From: an uncultured Bacteroidales bacterium
GTDB lineage: Bacteria; Bacteroidota; Bacteroidia; Bacteroidales; FEN-979
Assembly: GCA_903845055.1 (NCBI GenBank)
Contig: CAIMWF010000152.1
Span: 60,413 to 124,412, forward strand
Direction: 5' to 3'
DNA length: 64,000 nucleotides
Shown here in pieces: positions 1,294 to 62,995 of the stretch; position 1 is the stretch's first letter, and the number at the start of each line of letters is the position of its first letter. The position numbers and the translations under genes are program-made. The notes under the pieces are model-generated. The model was given only the letters and a program-made list of their open reading frames with translations. It was not told the origin of the DNA and ran no database searches.

Positions 1294-1321
1294 AATTAAA
1301 AATTACAAATTATAAATTACA
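1294..1321. repeat. Heptad repeat array, four units of AATTAnA
   Basis: Four contiguous 7-bp units, variants AATTAAA, AATTACA and AATTATA, run from 1294 to 1321 just upstream of the 83-aa gene. The rest of the gap, to the efflux gene stop at 1558, holds no convincing gene. See the finding on heptad arrays. Confidence 0.8.
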
Positions 1322-1557
1322 AAAAGATGGTAACCAATATGATGAGTAATCAAAATTTACAAAGGATCTTCAAATTCCCCGGGGAACCCTTACCGGCTTT
1401 AGCCGTTGATAAATCCTCCTGTACGGCACGGGTTATGATTTGTGTGCAAAGATATGAAAATCAGGCGGAGTTAGCAAACAGGGCTGCAAACTTAAAGCAA
1501 CGGGATGGTGATCCTGCGACAGGGAAAGCTATTTGTTCTTTTTAACCAGGGATATGT

Positions 1558-2895
1558 CTATTCAACAGGTTTGCCGACCGAAATGTTCAGCCTTACCACG
1601 CTGATAGCATATTCGATCCTGGCCCTGAGGAGGTTCACCCTGCTCTCCTGGAGCGCTGTTTCGGCATCCAGGAGGTCGAGGTTGGTAATGGCCCCGGTCT
1701 TGAAGGAGATGGCCGCCAGGTCAAGCGCCTCGTTTGCCTGGCTTACCTGGAGGACCCCCTGGTCGATCTTTTTCAGGGAAGCCAGGAGGTTGGTCTCATT
1801 CTGGTATACTTCGCTGGAAATATCGCGCGAAACCTGTTCGATGTCGTTTCGGGCCATGCTGATGTTCGAACTGGCCATCCTGATCGAATATCGCCTCCGG
1901 GTCGCATCAAAAATGGTCATGTTAAGCCCGGCCCCGGCCGCAAAGTTTGCTGTGAATTTGTTGAGATCGGGGAAATACCCGTTTTTGAACCCACCCTGCG
2001 CGAAGAGGTTCAGTGTCGGGTTGTCCATCACCTTCACCGAGCGGAGCTGCAACTGGGCATGCTCTTCATGCAAATGGGCGACCGCCATTTCATAGCGGTG
2101 GTCCAGCGCATAAAGGATCAGCGAATCGGGATCGATCCCGGGCTGCGCCGATAATGTGTTCCCCTGCACCTTCAGCCTGGTCTTCACCGGGAGGCCGAGC
2201 AGGGAGTTCAGGATAGCCTGCTGCGATTCGATGGAGGCTTCCAGGTCGACCTTCTGGCTCTCGGCATTGGAGAGCCTTACCCGGGTCGAAAGAATCTCAT
2301 AGTGCGTTGCCGAGCCGGTCTGTTCTTTCCGGGTCACAAAATCGAGGTGCTGCTGCAGGGTTGCAATCTGCGCCTCCTTGATCCGGATGGCCTCCTGCAG
2401 GTATACCTGGCTGTAAAAACTGACGGCTGTAAGGAGCGTCAGCCGCTGGCGGACCAGTTCAACGTTTTTTTCGGCCAGGTCACGGTTTGATTTCTCCACA
2501 TCCACCTTGCGGGCCGTCTTCCCGAAATCGTAAATATTTTCCGAAACGCCTACCGTTGCATCGTAGTTGTTGTTCGGGGCCATCACGAAATGACCAAGGT
2601 TGGGGATGGTCAGTTCGGGAACCGGTCCGATGTAGGTGTAGCCTGCATTGGCGCCGATGTACGGGTAGTAACCCGATTTTGCCAGCCCGATCCCTGCCTC
2701 CGCCGCCCTGATCGCCTCCTGCGCCTTCGTAATGGTCGGGTAGGTTTCGAGCACCTGTTTCAGGATCCGGGTCAGCGTCAGCGAATCGTTGGTGTTGAAG
2801 GGGCTTCCCTGCTGCCTGGGCAGACCCGCCGCCCAGGCCTTTTGACCGGCGATGGAAATAAACAGGAAACAACAAATTAAAAATTTGATTTTCAT
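1558..2895 (-). CDS. TolC-family outer membrane efflux protein (pump 1)
   Basis: A 445-residue protein with a signal peptide (residues 1-23, ending near AWAAG) followed by the duplicated helical layout of OEP/TolC proteins. The long amphipathic helices contain typical segments such as RAAEAGIGLAKSGYYP and, in the second repeat, KTGAITNLDLLDAETAL. It should form the outer-membrane exit duct of a tripartite exporter. It is the last gene of the tetR-hlyD-emrB-tolC operon, 4 bp after the DHA2 transporter stop. It is a paralog of the TolC protein at 18.5-19.8 kb. Drug range is unknown. Confidence 0.93.
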   Translation of the reverse strand: MKIKFLICCFLFISIAGQKAWAAGLPRQQGSPFNTNDSLTLTRILKQVLETYPTITKAQEAIRAAEAGIGLAKSGYYPYIGANAGYTYIGPVPELTIPNLGHFVMAPNNNYDATVGVSENIYDFGKTARKVDVEKSNRDLAEKNVELVRQRLTLLTAVSFYSQVYLQEAIRIKEAQIATLQQHLDFVTRKEQTGSATHYEILSTRVRLSNAESQKVDLEASIESQQAILNSLLGLPVKTRLKVQGNTLSAQPGIDPDSLILYALDHRYEMAVAHLHEEHAQLQLRSVKVMDNPTLNLFAQGGFKNGYFPDLNKFTANFAAGAGLNMTIFDATRRRYSIRMASSNISMARNDIEQVSRDISSEVYQNETNLLASLKKIDQGVLQVSQANEALDLAAISFKTGAITNLDLLDAETALQESRVNLLRARIEYAISVVRLNISVGKPVE

Positions 2896-2899
2896 ATAC

Positions 2900-4501
2900 T
2901 TAATTATTCTTTTTTATTCTGAGAAAGAAAACAGGAATTGCGCTGACCAGGGTGATGACTGCCGCAATCAGGAAATCGTCGCTGATGGACTGAACAAAAG
3001 CCTGCCGGTTGATGTGCGACATGATCAGGATTTTACCCTGTTGTGCTGCATTTGCTGCCGTACTGCCCGCGTTGTGCATCAGGAAATTGCCCAGGTTGTT
3101 TAAAACGCTTTTAAAAGCGGGGGAATTCTGGTCGAGGGCCTCCCCGTAGAGTTGTGAATGGTAGATGACCCGCGTGGTCAGGAGGGTTGACAGCAACGCC
3201 ACCCCGAAACTGCCGCCGATTTGCCGCAAAACGTTGATAAGCCCTGAGGCCTGTCCCATCTTTTCCTTCGGGATGCCGATCGTGGCCAAGGCCGTGAGCG
3301 GGCTGAACATCATCCCCATGGCCAGTCCCCTGAGATAAAGGGTGAACATGATGAAAGAGTGCTCGGTCATGAACGAAAGCATGCTGTTGAGGTAAAAGCT
3401 GAGTGCCAGCAGCAAAGCCCCGATGATGATGGGCACCCGCGGGTTCATACGGGTTGAGAAGATCCCTGTAGCCGGGGCAACGATCCCCTGGATAATGCCT
3501 ACCGGCAGGAAGACAGCCCCAGCCTGGATGGCGGTATATCCCAGCGAATTCTGCAGGTACAGCGGAAGCAGGAAGGTGCTCCCGAACATCCCTATGCCAA
3601 AAATGAAGATGATTAGGTTTGAGACTGCGAAATTGAATCCCCTGAAAAGGCTCAGGTCGATCAGCGGCTCCCTGATGGTGAGTTCGGTGACCAGGAACAG
3701 GGTCAGGCAGATGGCGGCCACGCCGAAACAGGCCAGGATTACCGGCGAGTTCCAGCCTCCGGAATTGCTGGCGGCATTGCCTTCGGTCAGGGCATACAGC
3801 AACACAGGGAGGAAGATGCTTACTGAGATAAAACCGACAGGATCGAAAGATCGTTTCCGCGGACTCCGGTATTCCTTCTGGATGATGGCCGTTGCCAGCA
3901 TACCCGCGACACCGATGGGTACATTGACATCGAAGATCAGGGGCCAGCTGAAATTGTCGACCAGGTAACCCCCGATGAGCGGCCCGAAAGAGACGGAGGC
4001 GGCCGATGCGATAGACCAGAATCCCAGTGCAAGGGTTCTTTGCTCTGGCGGGAATTCGCGCGTGATGATGGCCATTCCCACCGGCATCAGGGCGCCAGCC
4101 CCAAGTCCCTGGATCACCCGCGAGAAGATCAGCATATCCTCCGATGAGGAATACCCGCACAAAAGGGAGCCGGCGGTGAAAAGGAAAAGCCCGAGGAAGT
4201 AAACCCGCTTGTAGCCGAACCGGTCGGCCATCCATCCGGAGGTTGGGAGCATGACCGCCAGCGCCAGCATGTAGGCTGTAAGGACCCATTCAATCTTGTC
4301 GATACCCACCCCGAACGAGGCCATGATCTTGGGCAACCCCACGTTCACGATGGTTGCGTCGAGCACGGCCATGAAGGTGCCGATCATCACATTGGCGAGC
4401 AGCCACCACCTGTAGGAAGGGGCCTGCTCGTCGAATGTGGCGTTCTGCTCGCGGATGAAATTCCTGAAACCGTGCAGTGGTTTTATGCGGAACATGTTCA
4501 T
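2900..4501 (-). CDS. DHA2-family MFS multidrug transporter (EmrB-like, pump 1)
   Basis: A 533-residue major facilitator protein of the 14-TM DHA2 group. After a cytoplasmic N-terminus of about 32 residues come LDATIVNVGLP in TM1 (47-57), the loop motif A GWMADRFGYKR (89-99), and a TM5 antiporter motif region in GFWSIASAASVSFGP. It should drive proton-coupled export of hydrophobic compounds through the HlyD adaptor and TolC duct encoded on either side. Its ATG overlaps the end of the adaptor gene by 4 bp, indicating translational coupling. Substrate cannot be read from sequence. Confidence 0.94.
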   Translation of the reverse strand: MNMFRIKPLHGFRNFIREQNATFDEQAPSYRWWLLANVMIGTFMAVLDATIVNVGLPKIMASFGVGIDKIEWVLTAYMLALAVMLPTSGWMADRFGYKRVYFLGLFLFTAGSLLCGYSSSEDMLIFSRVIQGLGAGALMPVGMAIITREFPPEQRTLALGFWSIASAASVSFGPLIGGYLVDNFSWPLIFDVNVPIGVAGMLATAIIQKEYRSPRKRSFDPVGFISVSIFLPVLLYALTEGNAASNSGGWNSPVILACFGVAAICLTLFLVTELTIREPLIDLSLFRGFNFAVSNLIIFIFGIGMFGSTFLLPLYLQNSLGYTAIQAGAVFLPVGIIQGIVAPATGIFSTRMNPRVPIIIGALLLALSFYLNSMLSFMTEHSFIMFTLYLRGLAMGMMFSPLTALATIGIPKEKMGQASGLINVLRQIGGSFGVALLSTLLTTRVIYHSQLYGEALDQNSPAFKSVLNNLGNFLMHNAGSTAANAAQQGKILIMSHINRQAFVQSISDDFLIAAVITLVSAIPVFFLRIKKNN

Positions 4502-5517: not shown

Positions 5518-5530
5518 GGAAACGTAATTT

Positions 5531-6166: not shown

Positions 6167-6176
6167 GGTTTAACTA

Positions 6177-6207
6177 TTTGACCCGTTTGTTTGAGGGGTC
6201 AAAAGTA
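6177..6207 (-). promoter_or_regulatory. Promoter -7 element and inverted-repeat operator of the tetR-efflux operon
   Basis: TTTGACCC (6177-6184) and GGGTCAAA (6196-6203) form a perfect 8-bp inverted repeat with an 11-bp spacer. On the minus strand the -7 element TACTTTTG (6207-6200) overlaps the distal arm. A bound dimer would block the promoter, as expected for TetR autoregulation. No good -33 TTG was found at the right spacing. Confidence 0.65.
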
Positions 6208-6426
6208 CAAAAAAATCATCATATCGCACCGGGTCTTTCATGAAACCCCCGGGGGCTTTCCCGGAAATGTACAGGAGCCACAGCCCTGGTCAGTAAAACC
6301 ACCATCTGGATCGAAGGGGGAATGAATGTCCATAACCCGGTCCAGACCGGTAAACTTTTTGTTAAGACCCTTTCCCAGGTCCTGGACAAGAATGATGAAA
6401 GGATTATAAAACAGAGAGGCTCCCTG

Positions 6427-7251: not shown

Positions 7252-7303
7252 GTTGATCAGGTTGGGTGTGAAAATAAATAAGTCGGTTCCCTTTTAAAAG
7301 AGA

Positions 7304-9875: not shown

Positions 9876-10598
9876 CTAATTCGTTACGTTGCGTCTCGAA
9901 AGGGCCAGTTCGGTGCCGATGAGCCCGGTGAAAATGATGGAGAGGAAATAAAGAATGTCTTTCGAGTCGATTACGCCCCGCGCCATGGATTCATAATGGT
10001 TTGAAAGGCTCAGGTACCCGAGAATCCCCGCCAGCCATCCCCCCGAACTGCCTGCAAGACCAAAAATGAGATGGAAAAAGATGCCGATGAAAAGCGCCGA
10101 GAGGAAGGCTACGATCTGGTTGCTGGTGATGCTACTGGCAAACAGGCCGATACTGATATAAGAGGCACTCATGAAAAGCAATCCCAGGTATCCCATCCAC
10201 ACGGCGCCATGGTCGATCTTGCCGATGCTGGCCACCGTGAAGTAATAGGGAAGGGTCAGCGCCAGGGTGATGCATATCAGCAAAAAGGCCGAAAGGAATT
10301 TCCCGGCGATGATCTGCCAGTCGCTCACGGGTTTGGTTACCAGCAGCTCGAGGGTCCCCGATTTCCGTTCATCCGAGAGCAGCCCCATCGTGACTGCCGG
10401 GATAAAAAAGAAAAGGGTCCAGGAGGAGATGCCGAAAAATGACTGCAGGCTTGCCTGGTTGACCAGGAAGATGTCGTTCCCGAACAGCCAGGTGAAAAAG
10501 CCGCTGAAACCCAGAAACAAAACGATCATTACATAGGCCATCAGGGAGTCGAAAAACGACCGGAGTTCCCGTTTGGCGATAATCCAGATCTTGATCAT
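9876..10598 (-). CDS. gldF: GldF, ABC transporter permease
   Basis: A 240-residue ABC-2 type permease with six predicted helices and the motif SDERKSGTLELLVTKPVSDW, typical of the NosY/GldF group. It should form the membrane channel paired with the GldA ATPase and GldG. The start MIKIWIIAKRELRSFFDS is at an ATG at 10598. The gap to the upstream gldA stop is only 30 bp and is filled with a heptad repeat array. Confidence 0.92.
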   Translation of the reverse strand: MIKIWIIAKRELRSFFDSLMAYVMIVLFLGFSGFFTWLFGNDIFLVNQASLQSFFGISSWTLFFFIPAVTMGLLSDERKSGTLELLVTKPVSDWQIIAGKFLSAFLLICITLALTLPYYFTVASIGKIDHGAVWMGYLGLLFMSASYISIGLFASSITSNQIVAFLSALFIGIFFHLIFGLAGSSGGWLAGILGYLSLSNHYESMARGVIDSKDILYFLSIIFTGLIGTELALSRRNVTN

Positions 10599-10612: not shown

Positions 10613-10640
10613 ATTTACGATTTATGAATTATGATTTACG
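10613..10640. repeat. Heptad repeat array between gldA and gldF, four units
   Basis: Four contiguous 7-bp units, variants ATTTACG, ATTTATG and AATTATG (plus strand), cover 10613-10640. The array runs into the gldA coding end, and the gldA stop codon (TAA, complement of 10629-10631) is built from the repeat. Confidence 0.8.
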
Positions 10641-11579
10641 ATTTGGTTCGGGGGTGATGGTGAGGTCCCTGAATACCTCTTCAAGTTTCCGCTCGATGGG
10701 AGTCATTTCGGTGAGGGTCCAGCCTTTTTCAACGCAGAGCCTGAAGATGGCCTTCCTGGCGTTGACGCCGGGCCCGCTCTGAACTTCGTACGCCATGGTG
10801 CTTGCAGGCATCAGGTCGACCATTTCAACAGCGTCGAGGTTTTGCAGGTGACGGTAAATCTCATTGGGGTCGCCATCCTCGATGGTCACCCTGACGATCT
10901 CCTTGTCCTGGGCCTGTCTCCTCAGCGTGTTGGCCGTACCGTCGGCTACCAGCTGCCCTTTGCTGATGATCAGGATCCGGTCGCAGGTGGCTTCAACTTC
11001 CGCGAGGATGTGGGAACACATGATCACCGTCTTTTCACGGCCGATCCTCCTGATCAATTCCCTGATCTCCACGATCTGGTTCGGGTCGAGTCCCGAAGTG
11101 GGTTCGTCGAGAATCAGCACTTCCGGATCGTGGATCAGTGCCTGCGCAAGACCGACCCTTTGCTGGTACCCCTTGGAAAGCTCGTTGATCTTTTTATACT
11201 TTTCATTTTTCAACCCGCAGATTTTCACCATCTCCATGATCCTCTCCGGGATTCGGGCAGAGGGTACGCCCTGGATCTCTGCAACGAATTTCAGGTAATC
11301 AATCACGGGCATATCCTTGTATAGCGGGTTCGATTCCGGAAGGTAACCGATATGCTTCTTAACCTCCTCCGGGTTTTCCAGTACCGAAGTCCCGCCGATC
11401 CTGACATCGCCGCCGTTGGGGGGCATGTAGCAGGTGATGATCTTCATGGTAGTGGTTTTCCCGGCACCATTGGGCCCCAGGAAGCCTACAATTTCACCCT
11501 GGCTGACCCTGAATGAAATGTTGTCCACCGCTTTTTGAAAGCCATAGCTTTTGGTAATGTTCTCAACAATTACTTCCAT
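10629..11579 (-). CDS. gldA: GldA, ABC transporter ATP-binding protein
   Basis: A 316-residue ATPase with Walker A GPNGAGKT (35-42), the signature LSKGYQQRVGLAQAL, Walker B VLILDEPTSGLDP and a switch His in MCSHILAEVEA. The C-terminal extension with the DxxDPNEIYRHL-type region matches GldA-like subunits. It energises the GldFG membrane complex. First gene of gldA-gldF-gldG-DUF4340, read leftward. Its last codons and stop lie in a tandem heptad repeat, so the C-terminal tail (after EPNRKS) may vary between strains. Confidence 0.93.
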   Translation of the reverse strand: MEVIVENITKSYGFQKAVDNISFRVSQGEIVGFLGPNGAGKTTTMKIITCYMPPNGGDVRIGGTSVLENPEEVKKHIGYLPESNPLYKDMPVIDYLKFVAEIQGVPSARIPERIMEMVKICGLKNEKYKKINELSKGYQQRVGLAQALIHDPEVLILDEPTSGLDPNQIVEIRELIRRIGREKTVIMCSHILAEVEATCDRILIISKGQLVADGTANTLRRQAQDKEIVRVTIEDGDPNEIYRHLQNLDAVEMVDLMPASTMAYEVQSGPGVNARKAIFRLCVEKGWTLTEMTPIERKLEEVFRDLTITPEPNRKS

Positions 11580-18514: not shown

Positions 18515-18515
18515 C

Positions 18516-37139: not shown

Positions 37140-37174
37140 GTCACATGTCAATCGTCAATCGTCAATTGTCATTT
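37140..37174. repeat. Heptad repeat array, five units of GTCAnnn
   Basis: Five contiguous 7-bp units (variants GTCACAT, GTCAATC twice, GTCAATT, GTCATTT) lie between the acs promoter and the protease gene. Confidence 0.8.
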
Positions 37175-37237: not shown

Positions 37238-38251
37238 ATGATAACCCGTCCGCATTTTTTTCCCGCGATCATTCTCTGGATGATGGTCATTTTGACCGGG
37301 ATCCGGGAGATCGGCAGGGCCGCACCGACCACCCCGGACAAATCGCTTCACAGTATTGAAAGTGTCATCGTTGCCGGGAGCCCCATCAGCGATCATCTCG
37401 GAAATGTTGTGGGGATCACCATCCCGCTGAAACGGGCCGGCCGGCTTTTTTTACTGGAGGCGACCATCGATCAGCAAAGCGGAAACTTTATTCTGGATAC
37501 CGGGGCGTCGGGTCTGGTGCTGAACAAAACCTATTTCCGCGAAAGTATTGTCTTTGACGACATGGAGGGGGGAGGAGTGACGGGGACAACCGGGCAGGTG
37601 TCCCGGGTCAAGGTTAAACACATGCAGGTGTCCGATTTCAGCTTCGACAATGTATTGGCTGATGTTACCCAGCTGGGTCACCTGGAGAACCGCCGCGGGG
37701 TGAAGATACTTGGTCTTTTCGGCATGGCCATGCTGAAAAATTTCCAGATGGTGATCGACCTTCATAACAGTGAGCTGCAGCTTTTCAGGCTCGATAAGAA
37801 CGGAAATTCCCTCGATCCCAATGCGGCCGTGGTGAAGTTTGACATGATCCAGAAGATCGATGAATTCCACAATGTCATGTTTGTGAAGGCCACCATTGGC
37901 GGAAAAATCCTTGATTTTTGCCTCGACACCGGTGCCGAATCGAACGTAGTGAGCATAGATTCCCCTAAAAAGGTCATGAATACCATCACCATCACCCGCA
38001 GATCGGGACTCATCGGGGTCGGATCGGCCAGGGGAGATGTGTTGTACGGCATTCTGAACGATTTCACTATGGGGAACCGGCAGATCCATGCGATGGAGAC
38101 TATTTTGTGCAGCCTGGCCGACATGTCGCAGCAGTATGCTTACCCGATCGACGGGATGCTGGGCTACGATTTTTTTTCAAGGGGAAAAATATATTTAAAT
38201 ATTGTGAAAAAAGAGATGGGTATTTGCCTTAAGACGGAGGAGACACCATGA
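37238..38251 (+). CDS. Secreted double retropepsin-like aspartyl protease
   Basis: A 337-residue protein with a leader from MITRPHFFPA to about residue 28. Two retropepsin-like lobes follow, each with a DTGA motif (Asp87 in FILDTGAS; Asp230 in FCLDTGAE) and each with the later hydrophobic-Gly element (ILGLFG at 158-163; IDGMLG at 304-309). Both catalytic aspartates are thus on one chain, as in pepsins, but with bacterial retropepsin-like halves. It probably acts in the periplasm or at the surface; substrate unknown. An upstream in-frame ATG at 37145 lies in the heptad array and gives no leader. Its stop overlaps the next gene by 4 bp. Confidence 0.87.
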   Translation: MITRPHFFPAIILWMMVILTGIREIGRAAPTTPDKSLHSIESVIVAGSPISDHLGNVVGITIPLKRAGRLFLLEATIDQQSGNFILDTGASGLVLNKTYFRESIVFDDMEGGGVTGTTGQVSRVKVKHMQVSDFSFDNVLADVTQLGHLENRRGVKILGLFGMAMLKNFQMVIDLHNSELQLFRLDKNGNSLDPNAAVVKFDMIQKIDEFHNVMFVKATIGGKILDFCLDTGAESNVVSIDSPKKVMNTITITRRSGLIGVGSARGDVLYGILNDFTMGNRQIHAMETILCSLADMSQQYAYPIDGMLGYDFFSRGKIYLNIVKKEMGICLKTEETP

Positions 38252-39693
38252 AAATCAACAGTACCTGGATTTTGTCATTCCTGCTCCTTTTTTCAGGGCT
38301 TGCCGCACACGGACAGTACGACCCCAAAAAGGTATGCCGGATCGAGGAGGGCCGCCTGGTCTTTACCCTCGATCAGCGGTGGACCCAAAGCCAGCGCAGG
38401 GAGGTCGCCCGAATGTACGACCTCGACAGTCTTGTCATGGCAGGAGCTTTTGCCCTGTGGCCCGTAATCAGGGAGAACCATGACACCTGGACCACCCGCA
38501 AGCTCGACGCCAACCGTTTCGAATTATCGAAGGAGCCGGTTAAAAAGGGTCCCGGCATAGAACGGCCGGGTAAGATTTTCCTGCTCGACGACGACCTGGT
38601 TGATATGAAAACCAACCTAGAAAGGGAGTCGGTGCCATTCGGCGTGAACCGATTTACGCGCAATACCGTTCAGCAGATCTCTCCGGGAAAGGTCAGGTTT
38701 TACCTACCGGGTCACCTGAAAGCCCGTGCGGTTTTCCTTTCAGGTTCATTCAACGGATGGGCCACGCTTAAAACCCCGATGAAGCCATGTGATTCGGGAT
38801 GGATGGTCACCCTGAACATGCTGCCCGGCAAATACACCTATAAATATATTATCGACGGGAAATGGGTCGGTGATTCCTACAATAAACTGGGGGAGGATGA
38901 TACTTATCATGGCGTTAACAATGTATTTTTCTGCTATAATTACAAATTTGTCCTCAACGGATTCAACAAGGCACGCAAGGTAATTATAACAGGTAGTTTC
39001 AATAACTGGAACAAAACGGAGCTCCGAATGGTCCCCTTCAGGGGCAGCTGGCTGCTTTCGATGTACCTGCGTGAAGGAACACACGCCTATAAGTTCATCG
39101 TTGACAACCAGTGGATCCTCGATCCTGCCAACAAGGTAACCCGTCCCGACGGCAAAGGGAACCGGAATTCTTTTCTCAGCATAGGCGATACCATGTATTT
39201 CAGGTTAAACGGGTTCCAGGATGCCGGAAAAATTGCTGTGGCAGGTAATTTCAACGGCTGGAATCCGGCAGAGCTGTTCATGGAGAAATCGGCCGGGGGG
39301 TGGCAACTGCCATATGTGCTGGCCGCCGGCAATTACGAATACAAATTCGTGGCCGACGGCAAATGGATGACCGACCCGGCAAATCCCTTTAAAACAGGCG
39401 AGGGCGAACAGGCCAATTCGGTGCTCGTGGTAAAACCGAATCATCTTTTCAAACTCGAACGCCATTCCGATGCAAAAAAGGTGTCGCTTTCGGGAAGTTT
39501 CAACGGGTGGAGCAAGCCTGGCTACCATATGGTCTTGCAGGATGGCGTTTGGTCGCTGCCCGTCAGCCTCAAGCCGGGGAAATATACCTACAAGTTCCTG
39601 GTTGATTCAAAGTGGATCATCGACCCGGGCAACGAACTCTGGGAGGACAACGAATATGGGACCGGCAACTCCGTATTGTGGATTGAACCCTGA
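38248..39693 (+). CDS. Secreted protein with four tandem CBM48/AMPK-type glycogen-binding modules
   Basis: A 481-residue protein with a signal peptide (1-22), an N-terminal region of about 120 residues I do not recognise, then four modules at 148-230, 231-313, 316-395 and 399-481. Each has the FNGW or FNNW core (168, 251, 335 and 418, so 83-84 residues apart), a GxYxYKFxVDxxW segment and a closing DP.N..  This pattern matches the early-set glycan-binding fold of CBM48/AMPK-beta. No catalytic domain is present. Translationally coupled to the aspartyl protease (ATGA overlap), so the two probably work together on a glycan-linked or glycoprotein target. Confidence 0.87.
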   Translation: MKINSTWILSFLLLFSGLAAHGQYDPKKVCRIEEGRLVFTLDQRWTQSQRREVARMYDLDSLVMAGAFALWPVIRENHDTWTTRKLDANRFELSKEPVKKGPGIERPGKIFLLDDDLVDMKTNLERESVPFGVNRFTRNTVQQISPGKVRFYLPGHLKARAVFLSGSFNGWATLKTPMKPCDSGWMVTLNMLPGKYTYKYIIDGKWVGDSYNKLGEDDTYHGVNNVFFCYNYKFVLNGFNKARKVIITGSFNNWNKTELRMVPFRGSWLLSMYLREGTHAYKFIVDNQWILDPANKVTRPDGKGNRNSFLSIGDTMYFRLNGFQDAGKIAVAGNFNGWNPAELFMEKSAGGWQLPYVLAAGNYEYKFVADGKWMTDPANPFKTGEGEQANSVLVVKPNHLFKLERHSDAKKVSLSGSFNGWSKPGYHMVLQDGVWSLPVSLKPGKYTYKFLVDSKWIIDPGNELWEDNEYGTGNSVLWIEP

Positions 39694-39702: not shown

Positions 39703-39730
39703 GATTGACAATTGACGAATTACAATTGAT
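39703..39730. repeat. Heptad repeat array, four units
   Basis: Four 7-bp units (variants GATTGAC, AATTGAC, GAATTAC, AATTGAT) just after the CBM48 gene stop. In reverse complement two units read GTCAATT and GTCAATC, the same as the array at 37140-37174, so this operon is flanked by the same family in opposite orientations. Confidence 0.75.
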
Positions 39731-39790
39731 GAAATAGCATGACTGCTACCTTTACAGCCGACGCAGTTTTGAATTTTGAACTTTGCGTTA

Positions 39791-52626: not shown

Positions 52627-53727
52627 TCAGTTTCCTTTTCCGTGGTAGTGTTCCACGGTGAGCCGGTAGGCCTCCTCACGGCCGTACTTGGGTTCAAAAC
52701 CGAAATCCTTCAGCGCCTTTGCCGAGGTGAATGTAAAATCGTTACAGGTATAGATGACCGCGAAACGGCTGAATTTCGGTGCATAGGTCTTGAACGGCCG
52801 TGCCGCGAGGGCGATCCCCTCGGCGATCATTCCCATGACATAGGCGATGTTCCCCGGTATCCTGAAGTTCTTCGGACGGATGGTGTATCCCGCACCCTCG
52901 ATGATGCGGTCGAAAAATGTAAAAAAGTTCTCCGGAGGTCCGTCTGTGATGAAATAGGCGTTCCGGTCGACGGCAGGGTTGCCGTCCAGCAGCGCCTTTG
53001 CCGCCATTACATGCGCCCAGGCCATGTTTCCAACATAGACATGCTGCGACTTCGAGCTCCCGTCACCCAGCTTCACATAAAATCCTCCCTTTGCCATCTC
53101 CATGAGCGAGCCCACATGGAAGGGGTCGCCACCGCCGTAAATATCGGCGGGCCGCAGTACACAAGTGGTCATTCCGCCGGGCGAAAATTCCGGGTCGTTT
53201 CCGTTGAGTCCAAGCACCAGCAATTCCGAGAGAAACTTGCTGCGGCAATACATGTTGGGATGTTTTTCGGGGTAGGGAACCGATTCGTCGATGTTCACCA
53301 GGGAACTGCCGCCGAACACCGCATCGAGCGAACTGGTGTAGACGAGGCATTTCACGCCGTGTTCCCGGCAGCCGCGCATCACATGCTGGGTGCCGCCGTA
53401 GTTAATCGCAAGCACCTCTTTTTCGGGCAATGTTCCCCAGTCGACCATGGCAGCCGAATGGATGACCAGGTCAATATCACGACAGGCTTCCGATACAGCC
53501 TGCGCATCGCGGATATCACCCCGCACCATGCTGATCCGGTCGTCGGGAGGACCTGCGTAGGCCGCCAGGTCGAAAATGCGCAGCACCGACGGGCGCAGCG
53601 GCGAACCCGGGTCCAGCAATTCCTTAACGATCGCCCTCCCGAGAAACCCCGAACCACCCGTAAGCAAAACCCGGGGCCCGGTTCTCCCGCTAAAATTTTC
53701 CTCCATGTTCATTTCCTTGTTGTTCAT
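52627..53727 (-). CDS. NAD-dependent epimerase / 3beta-hydroxysteroid dehydrogenase-like protein
   Basis: A 366-residue extended short-chain dehydrogenase. The nucleotide motif GGSGFLG (24-30), YTSS (130-133) and the catalytic YCRSK (Tyr160, Lys164) are intact; the C-terminal part (with LKDFGFEPKYGREEAYRLT) is typical of the 3beta-HSD/sterol C4 group. Substrate is unknown: sugar nucleotide, steroid-like or long-chain beta-hydroxy acid. It precedes the acyl-CoA ligase gene by about 80 bp. A GTG start at 53745 would lie in the heptad array; ATG at 53727 or 53706 is more likely. Confidence 0.88.
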   Translation of the reverse strand: MNNKEMNMEENFSGRTGPRVLLTGGSGFLGRAIVKELLDPGSPLRPSVLRIFDLAAYAGPPDDRISMVRGDIRDAQAVSEACRDIDLVIHSAAMVDWGTLPEKEVLAINYGGTQHVMRGCREHGVKCLVYTSSLDAVFGGSSLVNIDESVPYPEKHPNMYCRSKFLSELLVLGLNGNDPEFSPGGMTTCVLRPADIYGGGDPFHVGSLMEMAKGGFYVKLGDGSSKSQHVYVGNMAWAHVMAAKALLDGNPAVDRNAYFITDGPPENFFTFFDRIIEGAGYTIRPKNFRIPGNIAYVMGMIAEGIALAARPFKTYAPKFSRFAVIYTCNDFTFTSAKALKDFGFEPKYGREEAYRLTVEHYHGKGN

Positions 53728-53735
53728 TAACCCCT

Positions 53736-53777
53736 CATTCGTCACTCGTCATTGGTCACTCGTCACTCGTCACTCGT
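53736..53777. repeat. Heptad repeat array, six units of CAyTsGT
   Basis: Six contiguous 7-bp units (CATTCGT, CACTCGT four times, CATTGGT) just upstream of the dehydrogenase gene, in the divergent gap before the 122-aa gene. The most regular heptad array of the window. Confidence 0.9.
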
Positions 53778-53797
53778 CACAAAGCTGCAAAAGTAAT

Positions 53798-53827
53798 TTG
53801 ATTTTTGCGAAAGTTCAATTATGTTTG
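53798..53827 (+). promoter_or_regulatory. Promoter of the 122-aa membrane protein gene
   Basis: TTG at 53798-53800, a 19-bp spacer and TATGTTTG at 53820-53827. The ATG at 53852 follows 24 bp later, supporting that start over longer frames. Confidence 0.7.
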
Positions 53828-53851
53828 CAGAACAAATCAAATCTGACGAAA

Positions 53852-54220
53852 ATGAAAAAAGTCTTATACTGGACCCTGGCCATCGCGGTTGTGGTGATCG
53901 CCATCCTTTGCTACTGGAAATACAGTTTCACATACAGCGAAGGGAACCGGGCGGGTATCCTGCAGAAATTCTCTTACAAGGGCAACATGTTCAAGACCTA
54001 TGAGGGCGAACTTGTCATGAGCAGCATCCAGAGCAGCCAGGATGTCTCCCTCGCCTCGGAGAAATTTTATTTTTCCGTTCCCGACAAGGAACTGGCCGAC
54101 CGCCTGCTGAAACTTGAAGGGCAGCGGGTCGTGGTGCATTACAAGCAAAAAAACGGCACCCTTCCCTGGCGCGGCGAAACAAAATACCTGGTCGACGACC
54201 TGGTTGAGCCGGCAAAATAA
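53852..54220 (+). CDS. Conserved membrane-anchored small protein, unknown function
   Basis: A 122-residue protein with one N-terminal anchor (about 4-21) and a beta-rich extracytoplasmic domain with YSEGNRAGILQKFSYKGN, FKTYEGELVMSS and FYFSVPDKELADRL. I have seen this layout as a conserved hypothetical of Bacteroidota, sometimes mislabelled as 6-phosphogluconate dehydrogenase; no enzyme motif is present. Start at 53852 is set by the promoter and anchor; a longer in-frame reading from 53576 is antisense to the upstream gene. Followed after 79 bp by lhgO. Confidence 0.8.
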   Translation: MKKVLYWTLAIAVVVIAILCYWKYSFTYSEGNRAGILQKFSYKGNMFKTYEGELVMSSIQSSQDVSLASEKFYFSVPDKELADRLLKLEGQRVVVHYKQKNGTLPWRGETKYLVDDLVEPAK

Positions 54221-54299: not shown

Positions 54300-55505
54300 A
54301 TGACTGAACAATCCGATTACCTCATCATAGGTGCCGGCATCATCGGGCTGGCCATCGCCCGTGAACTCCGGTCGCGTTATTCCCAGGCCTCCATCACCAT
54401 CCTCGAAAAGGAGCCTGATGTTGCCTACCATTCCAGCGGCCGCAACAGCGGGGTGCTGCATGCCGGCTTTTACTATTCGGCCGATTCGCTGAAGGCAAAA
54501 TTCACCCGCGACGGCAACTTCGCCATGAAGGACTTTTGCCGCGAAAAGGGGCTCAAACTGAACGAATGCCAGAAGGTCGTTGTGGCAAAAGACGAGTCGG
54601 AACTGGAGCCACTCTACGAGCTCGACCGCCGGGGCAAGCGCAACGGTGTGGATGTGAAGATCATCACCGAAGGTGAACTGAAGGAGATTGATCCCAACGC
54701 GCGCACCTTCAAGTTCGCCCTCTATTCGCCCAATACAGCCACGGTCGACCCCACCGAACTGAACAAGGCCGTACGCGACGAGCTGCTCGCCTCGGGGGTG
54801 AAGATCGTCTTCAACCAGGGATACAAGCGGAAGATCGATGGAAAGACCGTGGAAACAACCGGCGGGCTAACCTTTACAGCAAAGAAGCTGATCAATACGG
54901 CCGGGCTCTACGCCGACAAGATCGCCCGCGATTTTGGCTATTCGCGGCATTACACCATCATCCCCTTCAAAGGGATCTATCTCAAATACACCAAAAAGGA
55001 CAAGCCCATCAAAACCAACATCTACCCGGTTCCAAACCTTAAAAACCCCTTCCTCGGCGTTCATTACACGATCACCGTCGACGGGACCATCAAGATCGGC
55101 CCCACCTCCATTCCCGCCTTCTGGCGCGAGAACTACAAAGGGATGGATAATTTCAAAGCCGGCGAGCTGGGGAACATCCTGGGCTGGGAGAGCAGGCTCT
55201 TCCTTTCAAACGCGTTTGGCTTCCGGGGGCTGGCTTTCGATGAGATGAAAAAATACAATAAATCCTATTTTGTCGACCTGGCCACCAGCATGGTCCATTC
55301 CATCGATAAATCGGGATTTACAGAATGGAGCAAACCGGGCATCCGCGCCCAGCTGCTCAATACAGACACCCTGGAGCTGGTGATGGATTTCGTGGTTGAA
55401 GGCGATGACACCACCGTGCATGTGCTCAACGCCGTTTCTCCTGCTTTTACCTGCAGCTTCCCCTTCGCGAAATGGGTGGTTGACAATTATGTGGAGAAAG
55501 CTTAA
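54300..55505 (+). CDS. lhgO: L-2-hydroxyglutarate oxidase
   Basis: A 401-residue FAD enzyme of the DAO family. The dinucleotide motif LIIGAGIIGLA (8-18), the early SSGRNSGVLHAGFYY that covers FAD, and the barrel region IPFKGIYLKYTKK with the C-terminal AVSPAFTCSFPFAKWV are characteristic of LhgO. It oxidises L-2-hydroxyglutarate, a side product of malate dehydrogenase, to 2-oxoglutarate and passes electrons to quinone or oxygen. The neighbouring Ldh-family gene fits a shared theme of L-2-hydroxy acid metabolism. Confidence 0.95.
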   Translation: MTEQSDYLIIGAGIIGLAIARELRSRYSQASITILEKEPDVAYHSSGRNSGVLHAGFYYSADSLKAKFTRDGNFAMKDFCREKGLKLNECQKVVVAKDESELEPLYELDRRGKRNGVDVKIITEGELKEIDPNARTFKFALYSPNTATVDPTELNKAVRDELLASGVKIVFNQGYKRKIDGKTVETTGGLTFTAKKLINTAGLYADKIARDFGYSRHYTIIPFKGIYLKYTKKDKPIKTNIYPVPNLKNPFLGVHYTITVDGTIKIGPTSIPAFWRENYKGMDNFKAGELGNILGWESRLFLSNAFGFRGLAFDEMKKYNKSYFVDLATSMVHSIDKSGFTEWSKPGIRAQLLNTDTLELVMDFVVEGDDTTVHVLNAVSPAFTCSFPFAKWVVDNYVEKA

Positions 55506-55509
55506 CATT

Positions 55510-55550
55510 CAAAACTCAAAAATCAAAACTGTAATTCAAATTTCAAAACT
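55510..55550. repeat. Heptad repeat array, five units of CAAAnnT
   Basis: Three contiguous units (CAAAACT, CAAAAAT, CAAAACT), a 6-base break, then CAAATTT and CAAAACT, immediately after the lhgO stop. Confidence 0.75.
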
Positions 55551-55604: not shown

Positions 55605-55668
55605 CCCCAAATCTTCACATCCCCAAATTCCCAAATCTTCACATCCCCAAATTCTCAAATTCAAACAT
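55605..55668. repeat. Octad repeat array, eight units, ending at a start codon
   Basis: Eight contiguous 8-bp units from 55605 to 55668, variants CCCCAAAT, CTTCACAT, TCCCAAAT, TCTCAAAT and TCAAACAT, with the CTTCACAT/CCCCAAAT pair recurring. The array ends one base before the ATG of the Ldh gene at 55670, so it occupies the ribosome-binding region. Confidence 0.9.
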
Positions 55669-55669
55669 C

Positions 55670-56761
55670 ATGGAAACAACATACCGGTTCAAACACGAAG
55701 ACCTGATGGACTTTGTGGTACGCTATATGACCAAACTCGGCGTTCCGGCCGAAGATGCAAAAATCGTGGGCGAGGTGCTCATCTGTGCCGACATCCGCGG
55801 GGTTGAATCCCACGGGCTGCACCGCCTGGGATCCTATTACGGCAGCCGCATCAGCAAAGGCTGGATTGATCCGCTCACCCCCTTTAAGATCCTCAGCGAA
55901 ACACCCTCCACGGCACTGATCGACGGGGGCAACGGGTGCGGGCAGGTGGTGTCGCACAAGGCCATGCAGATGACCATCGACAAGGCCAAAGCCTCGGGCA
56001 TCGCAGCGGTCACCATACGCAACAGCAACCATTACGGCATTGCGGGCTACTATGCCATGATGGCCCTGAAACACGACATGATCGGGATTTCGCTCACCAA
56101 CTCCCAGCCGCTGGTGGCCCCCACCTTTGGCCGGACCGCCGTACTTGGCACCAACCCGATCGCCATGGCTGCCCCATCCGAAAAGGCATATCCCTACCTG
56201 CTCGACATGGCCACCAGCGCCGTGGCCTACGGGAAGATCCAGGTGTATGAAAAGAAACACGAACACATCCCTATCGGCTGGGGGATCGACGAACAGGGAC
56301 TGGCCACCAACGACCCCTCCCTCATCAAGCCGGGAGGACACGGGGCCCTGCTTCCCCTGGGGGGCATGGACATCACCGCAGGCTACAAGGGCTACGGGCT
56401 GGCCCTGCTGGTCGAGATCCTCTGTTCGGCCCTCTCGGGCGGCAATTTTCTGACCAATGTCGGCGGCCCGGGCAAACCCGAACCCACCGGCGTCTCCCAT
56501 TTCTTCATGGCCATCAACATCGAAGCCTTCAGACCCATCTTCGATTTTAAAAAACAGATGGACGACATGATCACCCTGCTCAAACAATCGCCCCTAGCGG
56601 TGGGTCGCGACGAGATCCTCGTTGCCGGTGAAAAGGAGTTTGAATATGCCGAATTCAACGAGATCCACGGCGTTCCCCTCATCAAACCGATTGTCGACGA
56701 TCTTATCAAAGAGGGCGAACGGATTGGCGTGGCGTTTGATTGCCCGCACGTCATGGAGTAA
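55670..56761 (+). CDS. Ldh-family (malate/L-lactate) NAD(P)-dependent oxidoreductase
   Basis: A 363-residue type 2 malate/lactate dehydrogenase. Visible elements are the His-containing RGVESHGLHRLGSYY (about 43-57), GCGQVVSHKAMQM, the active-site region NSNHYGIAGYY, and the C-terminal GAxLPLGG...GYKGYGLALLVE-like segment. It reduces or oxidises 2-keto and 2-hydroxy acids with NAD(P); malate, lactate, ureidoglycolate or others cannot be told apart. Downstream of lhgO on the same strand with two repeat arrays between; co-transcription is possible. Confidence 0.92.
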   Translation: METTYRFKHEDLMDFVVRYMTKLGVPAEDAKIVGEVLICADIRGVESHGLHRLGSYYGSRISKGWIDPLTPFKILSETPSTALIDGGNGCGQVVSHKAMQMTIDKAKASGIAAVTIRNSNHYGIAGYYAMMALKHDMIGISLTNSQPLVAPTFGRTAVLGTNPIAMAAPSEKAYPYLLDMATSAVAYGKIQVYEKKHEHIPIGWGIDEQGLATNDPSLIKPGGHGALLPLGGMDITAGYKGYGLALLVEILCSALSGGNFLTNVGGPGKPEPTGVSHFFMAINIEAFRPIFDFKKQMDDMITLLKQSPLAVGRDEILVAGEKEFEYAEFNEIHGVPLIKPIVDDLIKEGERIGVAFDCPHVME

Positions 56762-56763
56762 AT

Positions 56764-56784
56764 CAATTAAAAATTAATAATTAC
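56764..56784. repeat. Short heptad array, three AT-rich units
   Basis: Three 7-bp units (CAATTAA, AAATTAA, TAATTAC) right after the Ldh gene stop; weaker than the others because of AT richness. Confidence 0.45.
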
Positions 56785-57882: not shown

Positions 57883-57992
57883 GGCTGTGGTTCTATGAAT
57901 TGATCGATGATGTTTCAGTCCGAGGTGGGCCTGACGGGTTTTGTGAAACGTGGGAGGATGGTGTTTGCGGGCCTGCCAGGCAATGAACAACA

Positions 57993-58691: not shown

Positions 58692-58923
58692 GCGTCGTTG
58701 GGTATTACCTGTCAAAGTTAACGATTTGCCGGTTTATCCCTGCAGAAATATTTGTTTGCCCCAGGACGGTGAGAGAGGTTCATGTATGGCATGCCCGGGT
58801 TGACAACGCTGTAATGGGTGTTTTCTGAAAGCATTTCGATTTGTTTCATATGCTGGGGGGCCTGGTTTATGGTATACAACAGTTGATCGCCGGTGAAATT
58901 GAAAAACAGAAAAACCCGAATCC

Positions 58924-60264: not shown

Positions 60265-61208
60265 TTGTGCCGGTTTAAAAACTCCAAAAGGATGGCGTTG
60301 AACTGGAATGGGTGTGTCTCCATCGCCATGTGACGCGCCCCGGGGATGACCCGGAGTTCGGCCGATGGAACCTCCCCTTTCAGTTTTTTGCCGGTGCTAA
60401 GCCCGATCGTCTTATCGTTTTTACCCCAGATGATCAGCACGGGGGTCTCTTTCAAATCATGTGCGTCGAGTTTGATGATCTCCCGCGAATTGGCCAGCAG
60501 GTTCACCACTGTTTCGGCTGTTCCCTCGATCTGCAGCGTCTTCCAGTATCCATTGGTGGTAGCGGTGTCGGGCAGGAAACCGTAGGTGCTCTTCAGCTCA
60601 TGCCTGAAGTTGTTGTAGGTGAGATAATAGTGCTTGTAATAGGCCACCAGCATTTTTTTATACACGGGGTGGTTGACAACCCCCACGAAAGGACGGTTCA
60701 GGTCGTCGTTGGTGATGAAGATCATGCCGTCGAGGATGGTGAGGCTTTTCGTGCGGTGCAGGTTCATCAGCGCCGCAGCCTCCGCGGCCCCGCCGCCCAT
60801 GGAGTGCCCGACGATATTCCAGGGGGTCGTATCGGCCCCGTCGATGTTGCCTAACAGTTTCCATAGCTGCCTTCCGCGGTTGCTCTGCGACTGGTTGAGG
60901 GAATCCGACCGCTCGCTGTAACCGAAACCCGGCAGGTCGACCGCCACCACGGTGTAACCGCTGGCGGCAAGGGTATCCCAATTGTAACGCCAGCAGAACG
61001 TTGATCCGCAGAAGCCGTGGATCAGCAGGACCTTTCCCCGGTGATGCAATCCCCTGGCCGGCCAGAGACGGTAATGGATGGTCACCGAGTCTATCGTGGC
61101 AAAATGGCTTTCGCGAAAGGGTTTGCCCGGGTTCCCGGCGTGCGGGGTGCCCGGCAGCACCAGGAGGAAGGGGAGGAGGAGGGCCGTTAAAGACCGGTGG
61201 AGGAGCAT
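60261..61208 (-). CDS. Secreted alpha/beta hydrolase
   Basis: A 315-residue hydrolase with a leader (MLLHRSLTALLLPFLLV, to about residue 24). The oxyanion region LIHGFCGSTFCW, the nucleophile GHSMGG (Ser136), the acid in LIIWGKNDKTIG and the His in PGARHMAMETHP form a complete triad. Periplasmic esterase or lipase-like enzyme; substrate unknown. The longer frame to 61280 has no leader at its start. It converges on the M56-TonB gene with overlapping stop codons. Confidence 0.88.
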   Translation of the reverse strand: MLLHRSLTALLLPFLLVLPGTPHAGNPGKPFRESHFATIDSVTIHYRLWPARGLHHRGKVLLIHGFCGSTFCWRYNWDTLAASGYTVVAVDLPGFGYSERSDSLNQSQSNRGRQLWKLLGNIDGADTTPWNIVGHSMGGGAAEAAALMNLHRTKSLTILDGMIFITNDDLNRPFVGVVNHPVYKKMLVAYYKHYYLTYNNFRHELKSTYGFLPDTATTNGYWKTLQIEGTAETVVNLLANSREIIKLDAHDLKETPVLIIWGKNDKTIGLSTGKKLKGEVPSAELRVIPGARHMAMETHPFQFNAILLEFLNRHN

Positions 61209-61320
61209 ATTTGAAATGATTGGTTGCAAAAGTATGTAAATTTGCCGGAATTTCCGGAACTCCCTGCCGGCAAATACCAATTCCGTAAATTTTACGTTTT
61301 CTTCCGGTTAACGATACAAG

Positions 61321-62910
61321 ATGCAGAAAAACAATCCATACTTACCCCTCTGGTTTGCCCTGTTGCTGGCCGGGGGTGTCGCTCTGGGCATTTTCCTGGG
61401 GAACCGCGCAGGCAGCCTCAACCCCTTCAGCCCGAACCACGACAAATTGAAGGAGGTGGTCGATTATGTTCACGACAATTACGTGGATACGATGAGCCGG
61501 AAGGTGATCGAGGAAAAGGCGATCAACGGGCTGCTCGAAAAGCTCGACCCGCATTCGGTTTATATTTCCAGCGAAGATTTTCACGCAGCCAACGACCCGC
61601 TGCTTGGCAGCTTTGAAGGCATCGGCGTGCAGTTCCGCATTGAGAGCGATACGGTTGCCGTGATCAACCCGGTTTCGGGCGGTCCCTCCGAAAAACTAGG
61701 GATCAGGGCAGGAGACCGCATCGTGAAGGTTGACGGGAAAAATATTGCGGGCATCAAGATCAACAACAACGATGTCATGCGCAAACTGAAAGGTCCGAAG
61801 GGGACAAAGGTGACCGTCTCCATCTTCCGCCGGGGAACCGCCAGCCTCACCGATTTCACCATCACGCGCGATGAGATCCCCACCTACAGCGTCGATATCT
61901 CCTACATGCCCAGGCCGGGGATCGGTTACATCCGCCTGAGCAATTTTTCGAAAAGCACGCACGAAGAGGTTCACAAGGCGCTGGGCACCCTCCTGAAATC
62001 GGGAATGAAAAAACTGATCCTCGACCTGCGCGGGAATGGCGGGGGATACCTGCAGGCGGCCATAGACGTGGCTGATGAATTCCTGCGCAAGGGCGACCTG
62101 GTGGTTTATACCCGGGGAATGCACCACGAAAAGGAGGTGGCCTATGCTACCTCCAGCGGACTTTTCGAAACGGGCGACCTTGTGGTGATGGTTGACGAAG
62201 GCACCGCGTCGGCCGCCGAGATCGTTTCGGGGGCCATCCAGGACCACGACCGCGGGACGATCGTCGGGCGGCGTTCCTTTGGAAAGGGGCTCGTACAGGA
62301 GCAACTCGATTTCAAGGATGGAAGCGCCCTGCGGCTCACCGTGTCGCGTTATTATACACCGACGGGGAGATGCATCCAGAAGTCGTACAAGGACGGTCTG
62401 GAGGTCTATAATGGTGATTACTACCACCGGTTTATGAGCGGCGAGCTCGAACATCCCGATTCGATCAAGTTCCCCGACTCGCTGAAGTTTAAAACCCCGA
62501 AAGGAAAGGTGGTCTATGGCGGCGGCGGGATCATGCCCGACATCTATGTCCCCATCGAAAAGGATTCAACCTTAGGCTGGTACAACCTATGCATCAACAA
62601 GGGGCTGGTATACCAGTTCGCCTTCGATTACACCGACAGGACCCGCCTGCAGTTGATGCGCTTCAAAACCGCCGGCCAGTTCGAAAAGGAATATGATGTC
62701 AGCGATGAACTTTTCGGAGAATTCGTGAAATATACAGCCTTGAAAGGGGTGAAGCGCAACGCAAAGGATAACCGGAAATCCGACCTCTATGTTCGCACCA
62801 TGCTGAAGGCTTACATCGGGAGGAACCTGCTCGACAACAATGGCTTCTATCCCGTGCTGAACACCATCGACCCCGCTTTTGCGAGGGCGCTTATAGAACT
62901 TTCTAAATAA
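61321..62910 (+). CDS. S41-family C-terminal processing protease (CtpA-like)
   Basis: A 529-residue protease with an N-terminal anchor or leader (about 10-27), a PDZ domain (about 95-185), and the S41 catalytic core with nucleophile Ser297 in DEGTASAAEIVSGA and base Lys322 in SFGKGLVQEQ. After it comes a C-terminal region of about 130 residues. It acts in the periplasm, cutting C-terminal tails in envelope quality control or maturation. Divergent from the hydrolase with 112 bp between. Confidence 0.95.
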   Translation: MQKNNPYLPLWFALLLAGGVALGIFLGNRAGSLNPFSPNHDKLKEVVDYVHDNYVDTMSRKVIEEKAINGLLEKLDPHSVYISSEDFHAANDPLLGSFEGIGVQFRIESDTVAVINPVSGGPSEKLGIRAGDRIVKVDGKNIAGIKINNNDVMRKLKGPKGTKVTVSIFRRGTASLTDFTITRDEIPTYSVDISYMPRPGIGYIRLSNFSKSTHEEVHKALGTLLKSGMKKLILDLRGNGGGYLQAAIDVADEFLRKGDLVVYTRGMHHEKEVAYATSSGLFETGDLVVMVDEGTASAAEIVSGAIQDHDRGTIVGRRSFGKGLVQEQLDFKDGSALRLTVSRYYTPTGRCIQKSYKDGLEVYNGDYYHRFMSGELEHPDSIKFPDSLKFKTPKGKVVYGGGGIMPDIYVPIEKDSTLGWYNLCINKGLVYQFAFDYTDRTRLQLMRFKTAGQFEKEYDVSDELFGEFVKYTALKGVKRNAKDNRKSDLYVRTMLKAYIGRNLLDNNGFYPVLNTIDPAFARALIELSK

Positions 62911-62922
62911 TGTTGTATATTT

Positions 62923-62964
62923 GAATATCGAAAATCGAATATTGAATATCAAATATTGAATGTT
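62923..62964. repeat. Heptad repeat array, six units of GAATATY-type
   Basis: Six contiguous 7-bp units (variants GAATATC, GAAAATC, GAATATT, AAATATT, GAATGTT) between ctp and sod. A TATATTTG at 62916-62923 overlaps the first base and could be the -7 element of the sod gene, placing the array in its 5' leader. Confidence 0.88.
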
Positions 62965-62967
62965 ACT

Positions 62968-62995
62968 ATTGCCTGTTGCCTATTGCCTAATGTCT
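62968..62995. repeat. Heptad repeat array, four units of ATTGCCT-type
   Basis: Four contiguous 7-bp units (ATTGCCT, GTTGCCT, ATTGCCT, AATGTCT), three bases after the previous array, with an unrelated unit. Confidence 0.85.

Follow-up and report, generated by a model that had tools for sequence, protein, structure and literature searches.

We analysed a 64,000-nucleotide stretch (hereafter the window) of contig CAIMWF010000152.1 (positions 60,413 to 124,412, forward strand), which belongs to the genome of an uncultured Bacteroidales bacterium, a 3.95-Mb metagenome-assembled genome (MAG) of 175 contigs that is 95% complete. The intergenic gaps of this genome contain short tandem arrays with a period of 7 or 8 bp, and 146 of the 168 gap arrays found in 1.09 Mb belong to 12 word families of at least five arrays each. 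In addition, sister species favour versions of one word that differ by a single base, at many sites. In the best reading, the arrays belong to a limited vocabulary of 7- and 8-bp words dispersed over the genome; the words most likely spread when one array was copied to another, the arrays grew by slippage, and selection probably confined them to gaps. We hold this reading at slightly below even odds (roughly 0.45), and its chief competitor is a group of binding factors specific to each species. G numbers denote genomes (the source genome being G000), L numbers sampled stretches and C numbers contigs of the source genome. Open reading frames (ORFs) were called greedily, without a gene finder, and their starts are unreliable.

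Shared words with a period of 7 or 8 bp

The gaps of the window (8,184 bases) held eight period-7 runs, against 0.13 expected and a maximum of two in 60 dinucleotide shuffles; periods 3–6 and 8–12 gave none or one, and no period up to 24 gave more than two. The excess noticed in an earlier, sequence-only reading of the window thus survives a control of shuffled composition, and the ten array sites that it listed were all present, displaced by 0–7 bp. Nine period-7 runs scoring at least 9 were found in the window as a whole. When 464 kb of the source genome were scanned, the gaps yielded 45 period-7 runs (0.2 expected) and 21 period-8 runs (0.0 expected), followed by periods 21 (six runs), 16 (five), 14 and 24 (four each), mostly multiples of 7 or 8, and the ORFs yielded 12 period-7 and four period-8 runs. 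Across the 1.09 Mb, 105 gap arrays had period 7, 51 period 8, ten period 9 and two period 6; 34 further runs lay inside ORF calls, several of them probably owing to ORF starts placed too far upstream. These counts demonstrate specificity for periods of 7 and 8 bp, and they uphold the description of a genome-wide class of intergenic tandem arrays for which no gene accounts. The further remark that ten arrays in 64 kb is a high number is correct against chance and wrong for this genome, in which the window lies below the average: a single detector found five gap arrays in the window, against a density of 15.5 per 100 kb across the genome sample.

The families include AAATCGT (the largest, with 29 arrays), TGACGAG, TAGCGAGG, AGGCAAT, AATTAAA, TAGCGAAA/TGGCGAAA and the octad family GGATTTGA/GGATTTGG, which was found in the source genome itself. 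A unit counted as recurring wherever at least two exact copies stood in tandem at another place in 1.02 Mb of the genome, and each unit was compared with 60 shuffled ones. Eight of the 12 unit entries of the window (AATTAAA is entered twice), corresponding to seven distinct units, recurred in tandem above all shuffles: ATTTACG at 27 places, TCACTCG at 23, CTATTGC at 12, AATTAAA at 11, TCAAAAC at three, and TTTTGAA and CCCAAATC at two each. No tandem recurrence in this sample was found for AATTACA, GTCAATC or ATTGACA, and GAATATC, with one place, did not exceed its shuffles. Given the 12 families and the eight recurring entries, the proposal that most arrays have their own, site-specific unit is largely wrong. 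When gaps from different sites were aligned, 65 of the 114 alignments held fewer than 15 non-array bases. Within the units, variation was uneven along the word in seven of the eight families tested; in the TGACGAG-type unit, TGAC varied at 0–4%, and positions 5 and 7 varied at 14% and 30%, with G or A. The trinucleotides AAT, AAA, GAC and TGA were enriched among the 109 distinct units. We also considered a stop-codon cassette, in which a period of 7 or 8 would place a stop in all frames, and rejected it as a general rule because TAA/TTA (11 vs 18.0 in shuffles, unit set of the source genome) and TAG/CTA (17 vs 25.9, all 109 distinct units) were below the shuffles; TGA/TCA was modestly enriched (43 vs 28.9, z 3.2).

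Arrays also occur in other MAGs, of sister species, in which the same word appears in other versions. TGACGAR, TGACAAR and TGACCAR were counted on both strands of whole genomes (25 genomes each, including the 16 genus members searched). In that order, the counts were 145, 8 and 1 in the source genome, 3, 109 and 1 in G001, 3, 66 and 1 in G003, 92, 15 and 0 in G004, 180, 2 and 211 in G008, and 81, 305 and 1 in G014. Mixed versions were found in G009 (63, 122 and 65), G012 (10, 9 and 6) and G013 (53, 39 and 1), and G007 gave 0, 3 and 9. The word was nearly or entirely absent from G002 and G010 (0/0/0), G005 and G015 (0/1/0), G006 (1/0/1) and G011 (0/0/1). Control words written backwards gave 0–3 matches per strand in these counts. 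Among the genomes with at least 40 kb sampled, array density ranged from 0 (G039) to 43 per 100 kb (G019). The vocabulary of G020, from a neighbouring genus, was quite different (AACTGGTG, ATGCTGG, AACGGTG), with some clear inverted pairs and 35 arrays per 100 kb (stretches L155 and L238–L240).

In a phylum sample of 296 genomes, the TGACNAR word (TGACNARTGACNARTGA) was patchy, being found in 33 genomes with up to 413 matches, and its backwards control was found in 53 by our own count of the table, with up to 41 matches. The idea of TGACNARTGACNARTGA as a universal word was therefore rejected, and the presence of the control in so many genomes indicates that many words are in use and that TGACNARTGACNARTGA is not unique. 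The control word itself reached 22–41 matches in some genomes (G280, G144, G275 and G243), a sign of further vocabularies. Three words searched in viral contigs matched 19, 4 and 18 stretches.

The arrays also turn over at conserved gaps. Among 62 syntenic comparisons, an array was present only in the source genome in 21, in both genomes in 13, only in the relative in two and in neither in 26; where only the source genome had the array, the median gap was 164 bp, against 66 bp in the relative. The gap before the Ldh_2 gene carried TGACAAG, CGTGACA/GTCACGC, GCAAAG-type octads or AATATTC in sister genomes, and was short and array-free in L050, L057 and L058. In L051, GCAAAG-type octads form an inverted element in this gap (CGCAAAGAAGCAAAGACG ... 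GCGCCTTCGCGCCTTAGCGGT), of a kind that resembles elements in many environmental genomes. Array junctions are no synteny breakpoints and are as conserved as other junctions or more so: the junctions whose neighbour was retained in half or more of the comparisons numbered 16 of 19 for arrays, 20 of 34 for long array-free gaps (p 0.07) and 21 of 27 for short ones.

Placement and orientation relative to genes

The orientation of the arrays depends on their position within the gap. Of the 168 arrays, 105 were usable for a test of G-C skew, and arrays in the left half of a gap were mostly G-rich and those in the right half mostly C-rich (37/10 vs 14/44, Fisher 2e-8); array-free gaps showed a slight skew only. 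By strict skew, 14 of 49 pairs of neighbouring arrays within a gap ran from G-rich to C-rich and none in reverse, and 12 of these 14 pairs joined different families; the wider count of facing arrays of different families, 20 of 23, includes an AAATCGT orientation that was assigned after looking. Arrays lying 1–8 nt behind a stop were G-rich in sense in 24 cases and C-rich in three, whereas those at 9–15 nt gave two and two; in both classes, each array was counted against both of its neighbours. At 16–60 nt, the counts were 8 vs 21 with both neighbours and 7 vs 8 by the nearest boundary. Before starts, none was G-rich and ten were C-rich in sense at 4–15 nt (nearest boundary). Arrays that overlap a stop are subject to ascertainment, in that an array lying in the stop-free orientation becomes part of the ORF call (24 vs 0), an effect that leaves the 1–8 nt class untouched. 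The orientation rule thus resolves largely into an edge effect beside gene ends.

The nearest boundary was a stop for 86 arrays and a start for 69, and array rates were alike in tandem (77/548), convergent (21/142) and divergent (14/119) gaps. Octads lay nearer to stops than to starts (37 vs 12), which was not the case for heptads (45 vs 50; p 0.0014), and AAATCGT arrays near a start were mostly in one orientation (13 vs 3). A telomere-like polarity within arrays was considered, as 57 arrays had more mismatches in their inner third and 27 in their outer third, and it was dropped: unoriented right and left counts were equally biased (61 vs 35), so that the polarity is likely a detector artefact. 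The phases in which arrays start and end mostly mirror the variable positions of the unit. As to the U tract of an intrinsic terminator, a run of at least four A, equivalent to a T-run that follows the C-rich strand, adjoined the outer side in 22% of 141 arrays and the inner side in 16%.

Along the genome, arrays were over-dispersed: 44 stretches of 20 kb held 3.25 on average, with a variance of 9.3. Pairs of the same family were in excess at 400–1500 bp (13 of 48 vs 3.9 expected, with as many in 0 of 300 shuffles), at 4–20 kb (28 of 226 vs 18.6) and across different stretches of a single contig (90 of 763 vs 63.5). Below 400 bp, six of seven same-family pairs were inverted, as in the same-word arms at L176:18822-18935.

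An array desert was observed on contigs C56 and C62 (L129–L134, L186 and L187): the 160 kb sampled there held one array against 28.9 expected and had ordinary gap content. C62 is assigned to the source genome by its nadB gene, 86–90% identical to full-length copies in 12 of the 14 other genus genomes searched; C56 probably belongs to it as well, judging from its gltX (67–77% to 11 genus genomes, 54–63% to other genera). The neighbourhoods of these genes, in relatives together with the own copy, had three arrays in 53 kb (nadB) and one in 53 kb (gltX), and Ldh_2 neighbourhoods had 14 in 42 kb.

Origin of the arrays

Because slippage at each site alone yields no shared words, either a copying step or a selecting factor is required. 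Shared words without shared flanks, the genome-wide swap of a word version and the excess of same-word pairs across about one gene and along a contig together point to the need for a copying step, and we infer that arrays are copied from one another. A nascent strand or single-stranded fragment bearing one array would prime on, or recombine with, another array, and a chance part-match in a gap may serve as an alternative target of the array-bearing strand. Such ectopic template switching or strand annealing would seed and homogenise arrays, and replication slippage of 7–8 bp would lengthen them. Selection would remove arrays from reading frames and may favour the G-richer orientation within a few bases behind a stop codon. 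Element copying was tried as another route and rejected: 43 of the 114 inter-site alignments held at least 25 non-array bases, 15 of them with an array, and the long ones came mainly from a repetitive protein in L132 and an element in L200 resembling a miniature inverted-repeat transposable element (MITE).

Several points weigh against spread by copying. The event itself was never observed, the genomes compared being sister species, and arrays of 20–50 bp are short for RecA-type recombination. The excess of same-family pairs was absent below 400 bp (7 of 57 vs 4.8 expected) and at 1.5–4 kb (2 of 65 vs 5.3), which speaks against simple local copying. The 36 syntenic comparisons with an array cover 13 gaps, two of which supply 25 of the comparisons, and the set counts some genomes twice (L052–L055 match G017, G016, G001 and G018). 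Variation in the AAATCGT family was not position-specific (p 0.16), and the skew in pooled relatives had the same direction and was not significant (24/10 vs 13/13, p 0.12). Finally, the lengths of 7 and 8 bp are without explanation in a copying model.

Of the other explanations, binding sites for species-specific DNA- or RNA-binding regulators, with words that track the preference of the protein, come closest, and we regard them as unlikely. Fixed and variable unit positions in seven of eight families, the start-proximal orientation of AAATCGT, the preference of octads for stops and the sense bias just behind stops and before starts would all suit such sites, but orthologous gaps that lack an array or carry another family do not look like a needed site, about a dozen families would require about a dozen regulators, and array rates were similar at tandem, convergent and divergent gaps. 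Independent slippage of local sequence at each site, with 7 bp as a favoured slip length of the polymerase, is still less probable. It would account for the strong 7-bp preference, and PMC4692102 and PMC4679880 relay an earlier proposal that 7 bp is such a length; however, it predicts unrelated words at each site, whereas 12 families hold most arrays, eight of the 12 window entries recur above their shuffled counterparts, and sister species favour different versions of one word.

Templated synthesis, hairpins and scars all appear distinctly improbable, scars the most so. A templated polymerase (telomerase- or DRT10-like) would use a short RNA template to add words to broken or nicked ends; once two such extended ends were joined, word A would be followed by the reverse complement of word B. 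The pairs running from G-rich to C-rich (14 vs 0), 12 of them of different families, agree with this, and DRT10 offers a precedent for bacterial templated tandem-repeat DNA (PMC12632851). However, RVT_1 was unmatched in the source genome and in G013, two carriers of the TGACNAR word, and in G011 among others (27 of 41 genomes have a match), the negative in the source genome being that of a Pfam model in a 95% complete genome, with defence-reverse-transcriptase models not tried. Ku had no match in any of the 41 genomes, and among 14 control genomes only Bacillus subtilis matched. The break-healing model is lowered further by the orientation rule, which is local to gene ends and fades away from them, and by the placement of arrays away from synteny breakpoints. 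Hairpin arms, whether as intrinsic terminators, mRNA-stabilising stems or elements like repetitive extragenic palindromes (REP) or bacterial interspersed mosaic elements (BIME) with a Y1 (REP-associated tyrosine, RAYT) transposase, would fit the inverted same-word arms of some gaps. Folding z-scores, however, were alike with and without arrays: the means were −0.75 (n=40) and −0.66 (n=40) in tandem gaps, and −1.87 (n=9) and −2.43 (n=30) in convergent gaps, with no hairpin excess in either. The earlier suggestion of transcript stabilisers is thus unsupported as far as structure goes, array gaps folding no better, with only nine convergent array gaps folded. Nucleoid-protein sites and slippage-driven variation in length, put forward in the same reading, are conceivable. 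Facing arrays are also mostly of different families, and Y1_Tnp, matched in 32 of 41 genomes, was unmatched in the source genome, G011, G015 and G008 (the last with 373 TGACNAR matches) among others, and had six matches in array-poor G026. With no matches in the source genome, none of the three enzymes appears necessary, as far as Pfam models and a 95% complete genome allow this to be judged. Scars left by rearrangement or by the gain or loss of genes conflict with junctions that are as conserved as other junctions or more so; a role in rearrangement is suggested in PMC4679880 for intergenic repeats of Gramella and Aequorivita-type strains. About as improbable as templated synthesis is a cellular system that writes a species-specific 7- and 8-bp vocabulary at gene edges and rewrites it genome-wide when its templating RNA or protein changes by one base; if true, it would give each species a heritable 'alphabet' and would parallel, in bacteria, the change of telomere repeats, with hundreds of sites inside the chromosome.

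A likeness in form to known heptanucleotide repeats had been proposed from the window alone and is borne out. The short tandemly repeated repetitive (STRR) sequences of heterocystous cyanobacteria are alike in form and use other words, and the accompanying claim that the words differ is doubtful, given that TGACCAA of sister species is the rotated reverse complement of TTGGTCA, presumably a cyanobacterial STRR word. Intergenic heptamers without an assigned function are already known in prokaryotes; the arrays described here are a multi-word, fast-changing version. The literature that follows was covered through listings and passages of the papers. Tandem heptamers of prokaryotes at large (the SPADE survey PMC6344855, and surveys of simple sequence repeats by way of PMC4692102 and PMC4679880) are likewise dominated by period 7, lie between genes and are functionally unexplained, whereas the present set has several words, includes octads and switches versions between sister species while remaining alike within a genome. 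The TAACTGA repeats of Beggiatoaceae, Cyanobacteria and some Bacteroidetes (PMC4679880) are also dispersed intergenic heptads with a patchy occurrence among relatives, in which close relatives have shorter repeat-free gaps; proposed as a regulator-binding site in Beggiatoaceae, they consist of one word, mostly upstream of starts in the Guaymas genome. Here there are a dozen families at both gene ends, and no single word dominates just upstream of starts. The GGGAATC and GGGGA(T/C)T repeats of Xanthomonas and Nostoc (PMC4692102) share the conserved and variable positions, and the same gaps of relatives vary in length and sequence, but they are G-quadruplex words, and most words here, by eye, lack a GGG run. 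Geobacter metallireducens has tandem 7- and 8-mers, often as opposite-strand pairs at variable distance (PMC2700814); these are annotated as regulator sites with a set unit number, whereas facing arrays here mostly have different words. The GATAGRA satellites of Chloroflexus aurantiacus (PMC6749651) are also a scattered, species-specific heptamer family, of a single word, which its authors consider to have probably been transposed through the genome; the same source describes one group of short-repeat satellites, probably transposed in this way, as species-specific in general. Among these listings and passages, no published account of word sets switching between sister species was found.

Sister species of this genus carry at least a hundred copies of a word, a variant that differs by one base, or no copy at all, which offers a natural experiment on how such repeats arise, spread and act; a gap that is empty in one species and filled in another allows comparison. 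Spread by copying, if true, would open the long-standing question of why such repeats exist in bacteria to direct tests.

Individual arrays of the window and neighbouring repeats

The longest heptad array of the window, TCACTCG × 6.6 (53735..53780), represents the TGACGAG family on the minus strand, with 23 other places for its unit, and lies within an ORF call (53576-54220) whose start, by reading, is likelier near 53852. The AAATCGT family is represented by ATTTACG × 4.6 (10613..10644; unit at 27 other places), which overlaps the stop of an ABC-transporter ATPase ORF (10629-11579, minus strand) and lies upstream of another minus-strand ORF (9876-10598). GTCAATC × 3.6, in a divergent gap (37147..37171), was assigned to the same family with one mismatch, the exact unit being without tandem recurrence in the sample. 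From the AGGCAAT family comes CTATTGC on the minus strand (62966..62989; 12 other places; limits as a period-7 run 62969-62989), before the ORF 63024-63599. It is preceded, behind the ORF 61321-62910, by an array of GAATATC, GAAAATC and GAATATT (62923..62961; as a period-7 run 62923-62956), whose exact unit was found at one other place, not above shuffles.

The AT-rich word AATTAMA × 4.3 (1294..1323) combines AATTAAA, found at 11 other places, with AATTACA, found at none, and AATTAAA × 2.7 returns (56765..56783) 4 nt 3' of the stop of the Ldh_2 ORF (55670-56761). The start of this ORF is adjoined by 8-bp words, CCCAAATC/TTCACATC/CCCAAATT, arranged as a repeated 24-mer (55606..55669), a design of 8 and 24 bp rather than a heptad, with CCCAAATC at two other places. 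The TCAAAAC array (55509..55530; as a period-7 run 55509-55528) begins 4 nt 3' of the stop of the ORF 54300-55505; its unit occurs at three other places, and sister species show other words or none in this gap. Behind the ORF 38248-39693 lie ATTGACA/ATTGACG with indels (39704..39729; unit without recurrence), a heptad by Tandem Repeats Finder (TRF) only and a period-14 run in another scan. TTTTGAA × 2.7 forms an array at 39767..39785, with its unit at two other places.

Two kinds of longer repeat were noted in the sampled stretches. A repeat of about 370 bp, 94% identical between its copies (L200:4815-5188 and L200:12084-12456, and in part in L207), lies between heptad arrays and is MITE-like, with an inverted GGCTACTCTTTATACACATCTCT end. 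In L132:1-7000, long diverged repeats resemble tandem protein repeats, and the tetranucleotide profile is outlying.

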